Assembly: GCA_016874005.1 (NCBI GenBank)
Contig: VGVQ01000010.1
Coordinates: 1-64,000, forward strand
Reading direction: 5' to 3'
DNA from: Gemmatimonadota bacterium
GTDB taxonomy: Bacteria > Gemmatimonadota > Gemmatimonadetes > Gemmatimonadales > GWC2-71-9
DNA length: 64,000 nucleotides
The stretch's first letter is position 1. Every line of letters begins with the position of its first letter. The notes beneath the pieces are model-generated. The model did not search any database, was not told where the DNA came from, and was given only the letters and a program-made list of their open reading frames with translations. Shown here piece by piece: positions 50,583-61,266 of this stretch. A program made the position numbers and the translations under genes.

Positions 50583-52967
50583 GTGTGCTCGCTCGGGTCG
50601 TTCCTCCGCGGTTCCGCCGTCCTGCTCGGTATCGCGTCCACTCCCGTTGCCGCCCAGCCCGTGATTCGGCTGAGCGGCTACGTTCGCTCTTCGGCCAGCG
50701 GCGAAGTCATTCGCTACGCCCGGATCTCCGCCGATGGTCAGCCCAGCGTGGCGGAGTCGAACCAGGACGGTTTCTTCGTGTTGGCGCTGCCGCCGGGATC
50801 GCACCAAATTCGGATTCGGGCAGTCGGTTTCGCTCCCAAAGTCGAGCAGGTCACCCTGACAGCTTCGGTGATTCGCGACTTCCTCCTCGACCCGCGTCCC
50901 CTTCAGCTCGAGGAGATCACCGTGGCCGGCCGGCGCGACACCTCCGACGTCGATCCTGCCAGCGCCGAGATGAGCACGGCCCGGCTCGAGATGACGACCG
51001 TCAGGCTCGTTCCCGTCGTCCTCGGCGAAGTCGATCCGATCCGCGCCCTCACCCTGCTCCCTGGGGTGACCACGATCAGCGACTACTCGACCGGCTTCAG
51101 CGTCCGCGGCGGCACCACCGATCAGAATTTGATTCTCCTGGACGAGTCGACGATCTACAACCCGGCCCACGTCTTCGGCTTCTTCTCGGTCTTCAACGGC
51201 GACGCCATCGACGACGTCAAGCTCTACAAGGGTGCCATCCCCGCCCGGTACGGCGGCCGATTGTCCTCGGTGCTCGACGTCCGCCAGCGGGAAGGCAACG
51301 CCAAGCGCTTCGAAGGGGGCGCCACGATCGGGCTCCTGGCGAGCCGGATGTCGTTGGAGGGTCCGCTCCCGGACCGGATCGGCTCCTATCTGGTCGCCGC
51401 TCGGCGAACCTACGCCGATCTCTTCCTCAAGCTCTCGAGCGATCCCGATCTCAACCAGAACGTCGCCTATTTCTACGACGTCAACGCCAAGACCAATGTT
51501 CGGCTCGGGGCGAGCGGCGCCGTCATGGTCTCGGGATACTTTGGCCGCGACCGCTTCAAGGTGGCCGAGCGGTTCGCCGCGAGCTGGGGGAACCAGGCCG
51601 GCACCCTGCGGTGGAACCAGGCCTTCGGCAGCCGGCTCTTCTCGAAGCTCACCGCCACCGTGAGCGACTACGACTACGGTCTCGAGTTCTTGGGCATCGG
51701 ACGGGATCTGTCCTGGACGGCCCGGATCGGCGGGTACGACCTCAAGCTCGACCAGACTTACCACGTCGCCAACGGCAATCGGATCGAGTTCGGTGGTGCG
51801 CTCACCCGTCACAACATTCGCCCCGGGAGCATCCGACCGGTCGGCGACTCCCCGGTACGGCCGCTCGACCTCCAGCCCCGCTATGGCCTGGCTCCGGCGC
51901 TCCATGCCAGTCACGAGATCGAACTCGGACCCGCCGTTTCGCTGCGTTATGGGGTCCGCTACGCCGGGTTCCGGCGACTTGGCGCCGGAACCATCTACCG
52001 GTATGCCGGCGGTCCGCTCCGCTACGACGCCTCGCTCGGCCGCTATCAGAAGAACCCCGTCGCCGACAGCACCGAGTACCGGCCGGGCGAGACGATCGTC
52101 TCGCGATTCGGCCTGGAGCCGCGGCTGTCGTTGCGGGTCGGCCTCGCCAAGACCGCGAGTCTCAAGGCCGGCTATTCCCGGACCCGCCAGTTCCTTCACC
52201 TCGTCTCGAACACCAATTCGCCGACCCCGGTCGACATCTGGGAGCCGATCGGTCGCTATCTCGAACCGCAGCTGAGTGATCAACTCGCCCTGGGCTTCGC
52301 GAAGACCTGGGACGACGAGCGGTACGAGTTCTCGGCGGAGGCCTATTACAAGCGGCTGGCGAACGTCACCGACTTCATCGATGGTGCCGATATCGCGCTC
52401 AACGACCGACTCGAAACCGAGATGCTGCAGGGCACCGGTCGGTCCTACGGGCTCGAGTTGTACGCCCGGAAGCGGGCCGGGCGGCTCACCGGCTGGGTGA
52501 GCTATACGTTAGGCAGGGCGGAGCGACGCCTCCGGGGCATTGCCCCGGACGACCCCGGCATCAACGGCGGACGGTACTATCCGTCTCCCTACGACAAGAC
52601 CCACGACCTCTCGGTGGTCGGGTTCCATCCCCTCTCCCGCACCTGGACCGTGGCTGGGACCTTCGTCGCGGCCAGCGGTCTTCCGGCCACCTTTCCCGAG
52701 TCGCGCTACCGGTACAACGGACTCCTGGTGGTGGAGTACGGCCCTCGTAACGCGGCCAGGCTCCCCACCTACCACCGGCTCGACCTGACCTTCACCCGGA
52801 CCACCAACCGGAGCCAGTGGCAGTTCGGGCTCTTCAACCTGTACAACCGGTTCAACGCGCAGTCGATCGCCTTCCAGCAGGTCGAGAACAACCCGCTGGC
52901 GCTGGAAGCCGTGCAGACGTCGATATTCGGCATCGTGCCCAGCGTGAGCTTCTCATTCGCGTTCTGA
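50583..52967 (+). CDS. TonB-dependent receptor with carboxypeptidase-regulatory-like domain
   Basis: This 794-aa outer-membrane receptor has a signal peptide (FLRGSAVLLGIASTPVAAQ), a carboxypeptidase-D regulatory-like domain (about residues 22-100; LSGYVRSSASGEVIRYARI, LPPGSHQIRIRAVGF), a plug (about 115-215; LLPGVTTISDYSTGFSVRGG, DQNLILLDESTIYNPAHVFG) and a 22-strand barrel ending VPSVSFSFAF with terminal Phe. It imports a bulky ligand using TonB energy. The following DUF4249 lipoprotein gene starts within its stop codon (TGATG), which is the usual pairing for this receptor type. The start is GTG 50583. Confidence 0.88.
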   Translation: MCSLGSFLRGSAVLLGIASTPVAAQPVIRLSGYVRSSASGEVIRYARISADGQPSVAESNQDGFFVLALPPGSHQIRIRAVGFAPKVEQVTLTASVIRDFLLDPRPLQLEEITVAGRRDTSDVDPASAEMSTARLEMTTVRLVPVVLGEVDPIRALTLLPGVTTISDYSTGFSVRGGTTDQNLILLDESTIYNPAHVFGFFSVFNGDAIDDVKLYKGAIPARYGGRLSSVLDVRQREGNAKRFEGGATIGLLASRMSLEGPLPDRIGSYLVAARRTYADLFLKLSSDPDLNQNVAYFYDVNAKTNVRLGASGAVMVSGYFGRDRFKVAERFAASWGNQAGTLRWNQAFGSRLFSKLTATVSDYDYGLEFLGIGRDLSWTARIGGYDLKLDQTYHVANGNRIEFGGALTRHNIRPGSIRPVGDSPVRPLDLQPRYGLAPALHASHEIELGPAVSLRYGVRYAGFRRLGAGTIYRYAGGPLRYDASLGRYQKNPVADSTEYRPGETIVSRFGLEPRLSLRVGLAKTASLKAGYSRTRQFLHLVSNTNSPTPVDIWEPIGRYLEPQLSDQLALGFAKTWDDERYEFSAEAYYKRLANVTDFIDGADIALNDRLETEMLQGTGRSYGLELYARKRAGRLTGWVSYTLGRAERRLRGIAPDDPGINGGRYYPSPYDKTHDLSVVGFHPLSRTWTVAGTFVAASGLPATFPESRYRYNGLLVVEYGPRNAARLPTYHRLDLTFTRTTNRSQWQFGLFNLYNRFNAQSIAFQQVENNPLALEAVQTSIFGIVPSVSFSFAF

Positions 52968-53830
52968 TGCCGACGATGCGCCGCTGGATCCCGCTCCTCC
53001 CCGTCCTTGCCGGCTGCACCCGGGTGGTATCGCTCGAGGTCGACTCGGGACCGACACGGTTGGTCGTCGAAGGCCGCATCGAGCTGCGACCGGGCGATGG
53101 CGGCGGCCGCCAGACCATCCTGCTCACCACGACCGATCGGTTCGACGCGATCGGGCCGCTCCCGCCGGCGACCGGTGCCACGGTCGTGGTCCAGGACGAC
53201 CAGGGCCGGCAGTTCGTCTTCTCGCCGAGCCCCATCGCCGGGAACCCGGCCTACATCACGACCGGCCTGACACCCAGGGTGGGCGGGCGCTACCTCCTGA
53301 CCATCGACTACCAGGGCGAGCGCTATCGCGCCGAGCACCAGCTGCTGGCCCCGCCACCGCTCGACTCGCTCTATTTCCGGTACGAAGACGCCGGCCTGGC
53401 CCAAGGCGACTCGGGATTCCGAGCGGTCATCGACTACACCGACCCGGCTGGCGTCAAGAACTACTACCTCTGGGAACTCCTCGTCGACGGTGAGCGCCGC
53501 ATCGCCGTGGACCCGGGCAATCGGTTCCGAATCATCAGCGACGATCGGTTCTATGACGGCGGCGAGGTCAAAGGCTACCAGCCCTACGACGAAGAGGTGG
53601 TCGAGCCGGGCCAGGTCGTCACGATCCGCCAGTTGGCGCTCTCCGAGGCAGGATTTCGGTATCATTTCGTCCTGTTCGAGCAGACGACCGGCGGGGGAGG
53701 CCCCTTCTCGACGCCCCCGACGTCGGTCCGGGGCAACGTCGTCAACCTGACCGACCCCGCTCGTTACCCACTCGGCTTCTTCTTCGCCACCCAGGTGGCG
53801 GAGCGGTCGGCTGTGGTCCCTGCTCGCTGA
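52967..53830 (+). CDS. DUF4249 lipoprotein, TonB-receptor partner
   Basis: This 287-aa protein has a lipoprotein signal (MRRWIPLLPVLAGC, lipidated Cys) and a DUF4249 region: RLVVEGRIELRPGDGGGRQ, PATGATVVVQDDQG, GRYLLTIDYQGERYRAEHQL and KNYYLWELLVDG. DUF4249 proteins are encoded next to TonB receptors with a carboxypeptidase-regulatory domain and are probably surface or periplasmic ligand-binding partners. The start codon shares one base with the receptor stop. ATG 52967 gives a lipobox at the expected distance; a second ATG lies three codons later. Confidence 0.85.
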   Translation: MPTMRRWIPLLPVLAGCTRVVSLEVDSGPTRLVVEGRIELRPGDGGGRQTILLTTTDRFDAIGPLPPATGATVVVQDDQGRQFVFSPSPIAGNPAYITTGLTPRVGGRYLLTIDYQGERYRAEHQLLAPPPLDSLYFRYEDAGLAQGDSGFRAVIDYTDPAGVKNYYLWELLVDGERRIAVDPGNRFRIISDDRFYDGGEVKGYQPYDEEVVEPGQVVTIRQLALSEAGFRYHFVLFEQTTGGGGPFSTPPTSVRGNVVNLTDPARYPLGFFFATQVAERSAVVPAR

Positions 53831-53889
53831 GACCGGGTGGGAAGAGCGCGCGGCGCCGGTCCTGGACCCAAGGCATCAAGGAGGTGGCG

Positions 53890-55716
53890 ATGACCGCGAT
53901 TCGGCTGACCGTTGGAGTGATCGTCGCCGCGGGCTGTGGCCCCGCCCCGCTACCGCAAGCGCTACCTAACGAGCAACTCGCGACGGCTGGTACCGCCGCG
54001 GCGACCCGCTTGACCATCCAACTCGAAGCGCGTTTGGCCCTGTGGCGGCCGGCCGCGGCGGACGGACCCGCGCTCGAAGTCGCCGCGTTCGGCGTGGTGG
54101 GACAGCCGCCCTCGGTGCCAGGCCCCTTGATCCGGGCGCCAGTTGGCACCGAGGTCACCGTGACGCTGGCCAACCGGCTCGCCGATACGCTTCTGGTCAC
54201 CGGGCTGATCGATCCGCGGTCGACGGATACCATGGTGATCGCGCCGGGCCAGACCGGCGCGTCGACCTTTCGGGCCGACCGAGCCGGACTCTACGGGTAT
54301 GCCGGCCACGCTCGCCGCGGAGCGAGCGTCGACGAGCTCCCGCGAGGCGGACAACTCGTCGGAGTCGTCGCCATCGACTCGGCCGCAACCGGCCGAGATC
54401 GGATCTTCGCGATCACGGCGTGGAACGGACCGGTCCTGCCCGCGACCGGCGATTCCACCTTCCTTCTCGCAGTGAACGGGAAGATCTGGCCCCACACGCC
54501 GCGAATTCGCCTCGGGGTGGGCGATTCCGCGCATTGGCGGGTCATCAACTTTGCCCGAAGCACCCATCCGATGCACCTCCATGGCGCGTACTTCCGGGTC
54601 GACGCCCGAGGCGATTGGACGGGCGACACCGCATACAGCCTGTCGCGGAGGCGCCTCGCCGTCACCGAGGTCCTCCGACTTCGCGAGACCATGTCGATCT
54701 CGTGGAGCCCGCACCAGCCGGGAAACTGGCTGTTCCACTGCCACGACGCGTTTCACATCATCCACAACCAGTTGTCGGAACTGCCCGCGGCGGCCGCGCT
54801 GTGGTCGAGCCACCTCCGCGGCGACACCGTCCACGCCCAGGCGCTACCGCCCGTGCATAGCGAGGAGGGCCACGGGATGGCGGGCCTGGTGCTCGGGATC
54901 GAAGTATCGGGACCGACCCCGACTCGGTCCTCGCTGACCGAGCGCCGAATCGACCTCACCATCCAGCAACGGGCCCGGGTCTTCGGGGAGAGCGAGGGTA
55001 TCGGCGCCGTTCTGGCTCGGCCCGGTCAGTTGCCAGCCGACTCGATCCAGATCCCCAGCGCTCCGCTGATCGCCTGGAGAGGCCAGCCGACAGCGGTCAT
55101 GGTGCACAACCGCCTTCCGGCCGCCACGTCGATCCACTGGCACGGGCTCGAGCTGGAGAGCTATTTCGACGGGGTCGCGGGTTTCAGTGGACAGCGAGGC
55201 AGACTCGCCCCCGAGATTGCCCCCGGCGATTCGTTCATGGCCCGATTCACCCCGCCGCGAGCCGGGACCTTCATCTACCACTCGCATTTCAGCGAGGTCC
55301 GTCAACTGTCGCTCGGGCTGTTCGGCCCGTTGCTGGTTCTCGAACCCGGCACCCGGTGGGACCCCGACCATGACCGGGTGGTGATCTTCTCGGTGGCCGG
55401 CCTCGGCGACTCCGCGCTGGTGGTGGCGCACGATAGCCTGGCTCCGCTCCGCCGCGGGCGCCGATATCGGTTCCGCTTCATCAACATCACCCCAGCCGAC
55501 GATGTCGTCCTCGAGACCCTCCAGGCCGGGCAGCCCGTCGACTGGCTCGTCGTCGCCAAGGACGGGGCCGATCTGCCCGCGGGCCGGCCCGGGCCGGCGC
55601 GGCTTCGGTTCGGCCCGGGCGAAACGACCGACATCGAACTCGTCGTCGGAACCGGCCCACTCGCATTTCGGGTCAAGAGCTTCAACGACTTCGACACCGC
55701 GATTCCGGTCCGCTAG
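53890..55716 (+). CDS. Lipoprotein multicopper oxidase with permuted copper-motif order
   Basis: This 608-aa protein has a lipobox (VIVAAGC) and four cupredoxin-like segments. Copper motifs appear as HPMHLHG (226-232) and HCH-x3-H (283-289), then HWHG (416-419) and HSH (464-466). In ordinary laccase-type enzymes HWHG and HSH come first and HCH last. The first segment (PGPLIRAPVGTEVTVTLANRL) looks like a normal domain 1 that lost its His, and the last looks like a middle or final domain without copper ligands. Gln294 occupies the axial position after the type 1 Cys. AAGGAGG precedes ATG 53890. It lies 59 bases after the DUF4249 gene, so metal or phenolic oxidation linked to TonB uptake is conceivable (inference). 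Confidence 0.85.
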   Translation: MTAIRLTVGVIVAAGCGPAPLPQALPNEQLATAGTAAATRLTIQLEARLALWRPAAADGPALEVAAFGVVGQPPSVPGPLIRAPVGTEVTVTLANRLADTLLVTGLIDPRSTDTMVIAPGQTGASTFRADRAGLYGYAGHARRGASVDELPRGGQLVGVVAIDSAATGRDRIFAITAWNGPVLPATGDSTFLLAVNGKIWPHTPRIRLGVGDSAHWRVINFARSTHPMHLHGAYFRVDARGDWTGDTAYSLSRRRLAVTEVLRLRETMSISWSPHQPGNWLFHCHDAFHIIHNQLSELPAAAALWSSHLRGDTVHAQALPPVHSEEGHGMAGLVLGIEVSGPTPTRSSLTERRIDLTIQQRARVFGESEGIGAVLARPGQLPADSIQIPSAPLIAWRGQPTAVMVHNRLPAATSIHWHGLELESYFDGVAGFSGQRGRLAPEIAPGDSFMARFTPPRAGTFIYHSHFSEVRQLSLGLFGPLLVLEPGTRWDPDHDRVVIFSVAGLGDSALVVAHDSLAPLRRGRRYRFRFINITPADDVVLETLQAGQPVDWLVVAKDGADLPAGRPGPARLRFGPGETTDIELVVGTGPLAFRVKSFNDFDTAIPVR

Positions 55717-60084: not shown

Positions 60085-61266
60085 TTACGGCGGCGAGAGA
60101 AGGCCGACGATGCTGCGTACACCCAAGCCGGCCATGGCAAGGGCCACGACCACCCCTCCGAGATGAAGCCAACGGGGAACCCGAGCTTGCTCCCGCCACG
60201 GCTCCCGGCGGGCCGCCACCAGCATCGCGCCGAGTCCCACCGGCAGAATCAGGCCGTTGATCGCTCCCACGAAGACCAGGATCTGCACCGGCCGTCCGAC
60301 GAGCAGGAATATCGCCGCCGAAAACGCGATGAACGACACCGTCAGGGCCGAGCGCCTCGTCTCCCATCCCGACCTGACCGTCTGGAGGAATGACACCGAG
60401 GTGTAGGCGGAGCCGACGATCGAGGTGACCGCGGCGGCCCACATGACCACCCCGAAGAACCGGTAACCGAGGTTGCCGGCCGCCGCCTGGAATACCGAGG
60501 CCGGTGGGTTCGCCGGATCGATCGCGGTGCCGCCGGCGACCACGCCGAGGGCGCCGAGAAACAGCACCACCCGCATCAGGCTGGCCACCCCGATTCCGAG
60601 GATCGCCGATCGGGTCGCTTGCCCGAGCGCGGCCGGACCGACCAAGCCGGCGTCGATGAGGCGATGGGCCCCCGCGAAGGTGATGTAGCCGCCCACCGTT
60701 CCGCCGACGATGGTCACGATCGCGAGAGGGTCGACCGCGGTCGGCGCGACGGTCCGGATGATCGCTTCGCCGACGGGCGGGGCGGCGGCGATGGCCACGT
60801 AGACCGCGACGATGACCATGACCGCACCGAGCACCTGGGCAAACCGATCCATAGCCCGGCCGGCGTCCCTGACGAGGAACACGCCCACCCCAACGACGGC
60901 GCTGACCCCCGCTCCGATACGGGCATCGAGGCCGAAGAGCACATTGAGCCCGAGCCCCGCGCCGGCAACGTTGCCGATATTGAACGCCAACCCCCCAATG
61001 GCCACCAGCCCGCTCAAGAGGTGGCCAAGTCCCGGGACGACCGCATTGGCAACCTGGCTGGCCCGCTGGCCGGAGCCCACCAGGACCCGCCAGATCAAGA
61101 GTTGGGCGCCAAGATCGAAGAGCACCGAGACCAGAATCGCGAAACCGAAGCTGGCGCCCAGCTGCGAGGTGAACACCGCGGTTTGGGTCAGGAAACCCGG
61201 GCCGATGGCTGAGGTAGCCATCAGGAACGCCGCGCCAACGAGCGCGCTTCCTCTGCCCTTACTCAT
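60085..61266 (-). CDS. Nramp-fold transporter lacking canonical metal ligands
   Basis: This 393-aa, about 11-TM protein of the Nramp (SLC11) superfamily begins FLMATSAIGPGFLTQTAVFTS, where the Mn/Fe transporter motif DPGN in TM1 is replaced by GPGF. In TM6 the usual A-x-x-MPH is not found (GGTVGGYITFAGAHRLI). Both ligand sets are thus missing, as in the YcsG-like branch, so a substrate other than Mn2+/Fe2+ is likely. Other segments (GGLAFNIGNVAGAGLGLNVLFG) are typical. It is divergent from the FNR gene with only 35 bases between starts. Confidence 0.8.
   Translation of the reverse strand: MSKGRGSALVGAAFLMATSAIGPGFLTQTAVFTSQLGASFGFAILVSVLFDLGAQLLIWRVLVGSGQRASQVANAVVPGLGHLLSGLVAIGGLAFNIGNVAGAGLGLNVLFGLDARIGAGVSAVVGVGVFLVRDAGRAMDRFAQVLGAVMVIVAVYVAIAAAPPVGEAIIRTVAPTAVDPLAIVTIVGGTVGGYITFAGAHRLIDAGLVGPAALGQATRSAILGIGVASLMRVVLFLGALGVVAGGTAIDPANPPASVFQAAAGNLGYRFFGVVMWAAAVTSIVGSAYTSVSFLQTVRSGWETRRSALTVSFIAFSAAIFLLVGRPVQILVFVGAINGLILPVGLGAMLVAARREPWREQARVPRWLHLGGVVVALAMAGLGVRSIVGLLSPP

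Follow-up and report, generated by a model that had tools for sequence, protein, structure and literature searches.

Multicopper oxidases (MCOs) are sorted into two-, three- and six-domain classes in a 2020 review (PMC7036934) and in a 2026 paper (PMC13151041). The type B two-domain MCOs (SLAC-like enzymes and CjMCO) combine an N-type and a C-type cupredoxin; the latter holds the type 1 site, and a trinuclear site is shared by neighbouring units. They are homotrimers in which the trinuclear residues come from two protomers (PMC13151041). Three-domain MCOs (laccases, CueO, bilirubin oxidase) have the order N-M-C, with sites in the first and last domains and the HWHG motif before HCH. Among six-domain proteins, ceruloplasmin has its trinuclear site between domains 1 and 6. 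Vasin and colleagues described a trinuclear site between domains 2 and 3, with ligands from both, in the six-domain bacterial MnxG-like oxidases and algal ferroxidases (Fox1), the bacterial enzymes having a type 1 site in domain 2 only (PMC3600357). Their survey took only sequences longer than 800 residues (PMC3600357), and would therefore miss a four-domain family of ~610-650 residues; the bacterial search of Ausec and colleagues relied on two- and three-domain models alone (PMC3192119). In the open-access literature up to 2026, we could not find any description of a four-domain, permuted or tandem-duplicated MCO class.

The window analysed here, a stretch of 64,000 nucleotides from a Gemmatimonadota genome (contig VGVQ01000010.1), contains at 53890..55716 (+) a four-domain multicopper oxidase gene (P0001) with full-length homologues. 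Its translation of 608 aa has no internal stop, and a GTG at 53884 is the opening codon of the surrounding ORF. In the protein, the C-type motifs HPMHLHG (residues 226-232) and HCHDAFH (283-289) lie N-terminal to the N-type motifs HWHG (416-419) and HSH (464-466). This permuted order, pointed out in an earlier note on the same DNA, is confirmed by the translation and by 76 of 76 aligned full-length relatives. Such conservation, with invariant ligands, excludes chance, assembly error or a frameshift as its cause. Long antisense ORFs also run across the gene; they are without independent support and were set aside as shadow frames of a conserved GC-rich gene.

The protein starts with a putative signal sequence (53890..53937, +), read from the sequence and from a model helix at residues 2-13. 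This signal includes VAAGC (Cys16), which we take to be a lipobox-like pattern, and a Cys near the same place is also present in close relatives. The four-domain oxidase is probably an exported lipoprotein.

Of 288 genomes from the same order, 128 have matches with E <= 1e-60, and most of these matches cover the query end to end at ~37-46% identity; identity is 61-71% in the nearest subclade, with contig-end fragments included. Across the phylum, 96 of the 346 sampled genomes have matches, as do 13 of 250 genomes of an acidobacterial class. Named records extend the family to Acidobacteriota (Terriglobia, other Acidobacteria and Thermoanaerobaculia), Bacteroidota (Flavihumibacter profundi, whose genome holds two copies) and Proteobacteria (Steroidobacter, a Rhodospirillaceae and an alphaproteobacterial MAG). 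Since many of these records are MAGs, wrong binning might explain an individual assignment outside Gemmatimonadota and Acidobacteriota; Flavihumibacter, in contrast, is represented by the genome of a named strain. One member is carried on a plasmid (NZ_CP007129.1) of the cultured Gemmatirosa kalamazoonensis. Open frames of the family are mostly 600-800 aa long, and the 76 aligned full-length members share 33-68% identity. The order is kept in every aligned member of this family, which is found in several bacterial phyla, and the alignments indicate that it is a stable and widespread family trait and not an accident of the source genome. Two to four copies are present in many genomes (G078, G174, G202, G277 and others), which suggests lineage-specific expansion.

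Both profiles and structural model find four cupredoxins in the chain, rather than the two of a two-domain MCO. Domain 1 (residues 36-165; 53995..54384, +) is a degenerate N-type cupredoxin without copper ligands, in which the stretch PGPLIRAPVGTEV begins at about residue 77. It matches Pfam Cu-oxidase_3 with 21.4 bits in the query protein (cut-off 21) and in 59 of 60 relatives (best E 2e-10), which bears out the suggestion of the earlier note that a histidine-less copy of the N-terminal domain stands ahead of the HCH domain. Domain 2 (~168-342; 54391..54915, +) is a C-type cupredoxin whose final strand lies at 334-340 in the model; it houses the type 1 site and one half of the trinuclear site, and domain 3 (348-488; 54931..55353, +) is an N-type cupredoxin with the other half. 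The corresponding Pfam models occur in the anticipated sequence, Cu-oxidase_2 at 191-289 ahead of Cu-oxidase_3 at 387-485. Domain 4 (489-600; 55354..55689, +) is a degenerate C-type cupredoxin without copper ligands, in line with the copper-free domain that the earlier note placed after HWHG; just 5 of the 76 members have a Cys or HxH there.

Each of the four domains was turned into a profile and compared with two- and three-domain oxidases from related genomes, in small sets (10 two-domain and 34 three-domain sequences) drawn mostly from one phylum. With the domain 1 profile, N domains of two- and three-domain enzymes score 105 and C domains ~50; the profile of domain 3 is of N type (188-192) and that of domain 2 of C type (155-157). 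The domain 4 profile is closest to the C domain of two-domain MCOs (91.0), followed by the laccase middle domain (72.1), domain 2 (70.1) and the laccase C domain (40.9). Profiles and model together indicate that the chain is N'-C-N-C', domains 1 (N') and 3 being of N type and domains 2 and 4 (C') of C type. In contrast to three-domain MCOs, C is ahead of N in all aligned members, and a degenerate N domain leads the chain.

An alignment of the first half of the protein with the second extends over 193 columns (E 3.8e-19), and each half matches two-domain oxidases from end to end (E 2.2e-40 and 1.5e-44, respectively). We consider it probable that a type B two-domain oxidase was duplicated in tandem and in frame to give this exported N'-C-N-C' oxidase. 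Such a duplication, with complementary loss of the outer sites, was one of two origins put forward in the earlier note, and it is well supported by the profile comparisons, the vestigial residues and the structural model.

The second proposal was a circular permutation of a three-domain laccase (from N-M-C to C-N-M) with an extra N domain captured in front. Three-domain enzymes share the ligand motifs, and their domains 1-2 resemble domains 3-4 of our protein: the two pairs align contiguously in laccases (E 8e-37), and domains 1-2 of SufI superpose on model residues 349-608 (Z 22.7). Moreover, in 31 of 60 members domain 4 is recognised by the Pfam Cu-oxidase model, which represents the laccase middle domain. 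However, this model also matches the C domains of two-domain enzymes, and was discarded as proof of a laccase M domain, while the profile of domain 4 is nearer to the two-domain C domain than to laccase M. The first half is also at odds with a laccase source, as it aligns end to end with two-domain enzymes alone, only its N domain being alignable with three-domain ones, and domain 1 demands an additional event. A permuted laccase fits less well on these grounds, and we regard it as unlikely. The preference for two-domain over three-domain relatives is good but not final, because the comparison sets are small and mostly from a single phylum.

Domain 1 retains vestiges of a lost site. In the 76-member alignment, the old place of HWHG (residues 102-105, LVTG in the query; 54193..54204, +) reads x-V-H/x-G, with His at position 104 in 31 members and Gly105 in 75, and the old place of YHSH reads Y-W/x-A/G-x, with Tyr in 75. 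No intermediate with an intact HxHG site in domain 1 was seen among the aligned members. Under a duplication, the ancestor would have been a trimeric two-domain oxidase, in which each trinuclear cluster lay between the C domain of one subunit and the N domain of the next. Fusion would have made one of these interfaces internal, that of the first-half C domain with the second-half N domain, and this one would have been retained. Since a fused pair would need only this internal site, loss of the outer sites would be allowed, and the outward-facing N' and C' domains may then have lost their ligands. Whereas type B enzymes are homotrimers, we see here one four-domain chain with one complete ligand set, and the usual inter-subunit trinuclear sites are not expected from outer domains without ligands.

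The ligand set is that of a full multicopper oxidase: eight trinuclear His, the type 1 Cys, two type 1 His and an axial residue. By the roles assigned in the MCO family, HPMHLHG (54565..54585, +) would provide type 1 His226 and trinuclear His229 and His231, HCHDAFH (54736..54756, +) trinuclear His283 and His285 together with type 1 Cys284 and His289, and HWHG (55135..55146, +) and HSH (55279..55287, +) the remaining trinuclear ligands. None of these 11 residues (His226, 229, 231, 283, 285, 289, 416, 418, 464 and 466, and Cys284) varies in any of the 76 members. Judged from these ligands, an oxidase function is very likely. The sequences and the model establish the ligand set, the types and order of the domains, their conservation in the family, the internal repeat and a predicted fold; copper loading, cluster geometry, catalysis, monomeric state and substrate are what we infer here. 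Loss of sites in two of four domains would also fit a copper protein that is catalytically dead or structural and retains only the fold. Decay, however, would not keep every trinuclear His, the Cys and both type 1 His invariant, and the axial Met330 in 75 members, at the identity levels of this family, which makes a dead protein highly improbable.

Concerning the axial position, Gln294 had been proposed as a stellacyanin-like ligand. This position (Cys+10) is variable among the 76 members (Ala 19, Gln 10, Glu 7, others). Two- and three-domain enzymes carry the axial Met in a GM motif just ahead of the last strand (HCHILPHAESEHGMFGM, HCHIAEHLESGMMG), and the four-domain family has the same GM-x-G motif as HGMAGLV, behind an insertion, with Met330 (54877..54879, +) in the canonical place in 75 of 76 members. 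The assignment to Gln294 is very probably wrong.

The insertion (residues 290-329; 54757..54876, +) separates the type 1 His from the axial Met, is rich in His and occurs family-wide. The spacing between the two ligands is 13-47 residues (median 28) in the family, against ~5-7 in most two- and three-domain enzymes; the insertion varies in length, and across the family it is enriched in His (9.7% against 3.4%). The alignment marks it as a hallmark of the four-domain oxidases. It adjoins the type 1 ligands in sequence, and our guess is that it serves as a lid or a metal-binding element. A lengthened segment rich in His also separates the type 1 His from the Met (HHATNHDGADHGGM) in two two-domain oxidases of other genomes (L153 and L154), a possible pointer to the lineage from which the duplicated unit came.

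An AlphaFold2 model of the full chain, built with 76 sequences, folds into four domains (pLDDT 89.7, pTM 0.91). Model residues 21-341 can be superposed on 3gdc and 7rab, single chains of two-domain MCOs, at 2.5-2.7 A for 255 residues (Z 24.5-24.8). When the whole model is searched with Foldseek, the best matches are six-domain proteins: MnxG (9bxa) has the highest TM-score among the matches listed (TMq 0.64), ceruloplasmin reaches ~0.62 across all four domains, and laccases are at ~0.33. Ceruloplasmin shares with our protein an alternating N-C chain, as do factors V and VIII, but differs in its six domains and in the location of its trinuclear site. In the prediction, the arrangement of the four domains closely resembles a run of four adjacent domains in a six-domain ring. 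A fragment of domains 2-3 modelled alone gave a weaker result (pTM 0.81), with a TMq of ~0.6 to ceruloplasmin and ~230 residues superposed at 4 A on domain pairs of bilirubin oxidase and CueO.

As ligands are lost from the outer domains, domains 2 and 3 should hold the trinuclear site between them. A reducing substrate would deliver electrons to the type 1 copper of domain 2 (His226, Cys284, His289, Met330), and the Cys-His path would carry them on to the trinuclear cluster, formed by eight His of the two domains, where O2 would be reduced to water.

By motif positions against domain borders, the trinuclear ligands fall in the same two domains as in MnxG-like enzymes and Fox1, and the type 1 site is in domain 2 as in the bacterial ones (PMC3600357). 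Together with the top whole-model score, this shared layout would agree with an origin from a six-domain MnxG-like oxidase by loss of domains 5 and 6. Those proteins have six domains and exceed 1200 aa in the bacterial survey, against four domains and 608 aa here. MnxG is absent from the best 60 PDB sequence matches, whereas two- and three-domain enzymes do appear there, which argues weakly against a truncation; we hold this origin to be improbable. The motif order itself is not new: C before N has a precedent in six-domain enzymes (PMC3600357), and it is the four-domain form that apparently has none.

Returning to the tandem duplication, a common four-domain class would represent a duplication state that schemes of MCO evolution skip, and makes the step from two to six domains directly testable. 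One tentative and rather doubtful extension is that the N'-C-N-C' class is a surviving intermediate, either on the way from a two-domain trimer to a six-domain chain or as the source of laccases, through permutation (N-C'-N'-C) and loss of N'. The class may also have ecological relevance. In a survey of straw-amended soil, Gemmatimonadales accounted for more of the laccase-like genes than any other order, and matches were sorted with two- and three-domain models only (PMC12045287); part of these Gemmatimonadales genes may therefore belong to the four-domain class.

Finally, we examined the surroundings of the gene. No conserved neighbours were found across 80 loci, except for common Ser/Thr kinases; as neighbours vary, gene neighbourhood was ruled out as a clue to the substrate. 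In the window, the oxidase is preceded at 50583-53830 (+) by a co-directional TonB-dependent receptor with CarboxypepD_reg and Plug domains and by a DUF4249 protein, a pair that has no counterpart beside family members at the compared loci. Further downstream, 60085-61266 (-) encodes a putative membrane protein that by eye resembles an NRAMP-type divalent metal transporter.
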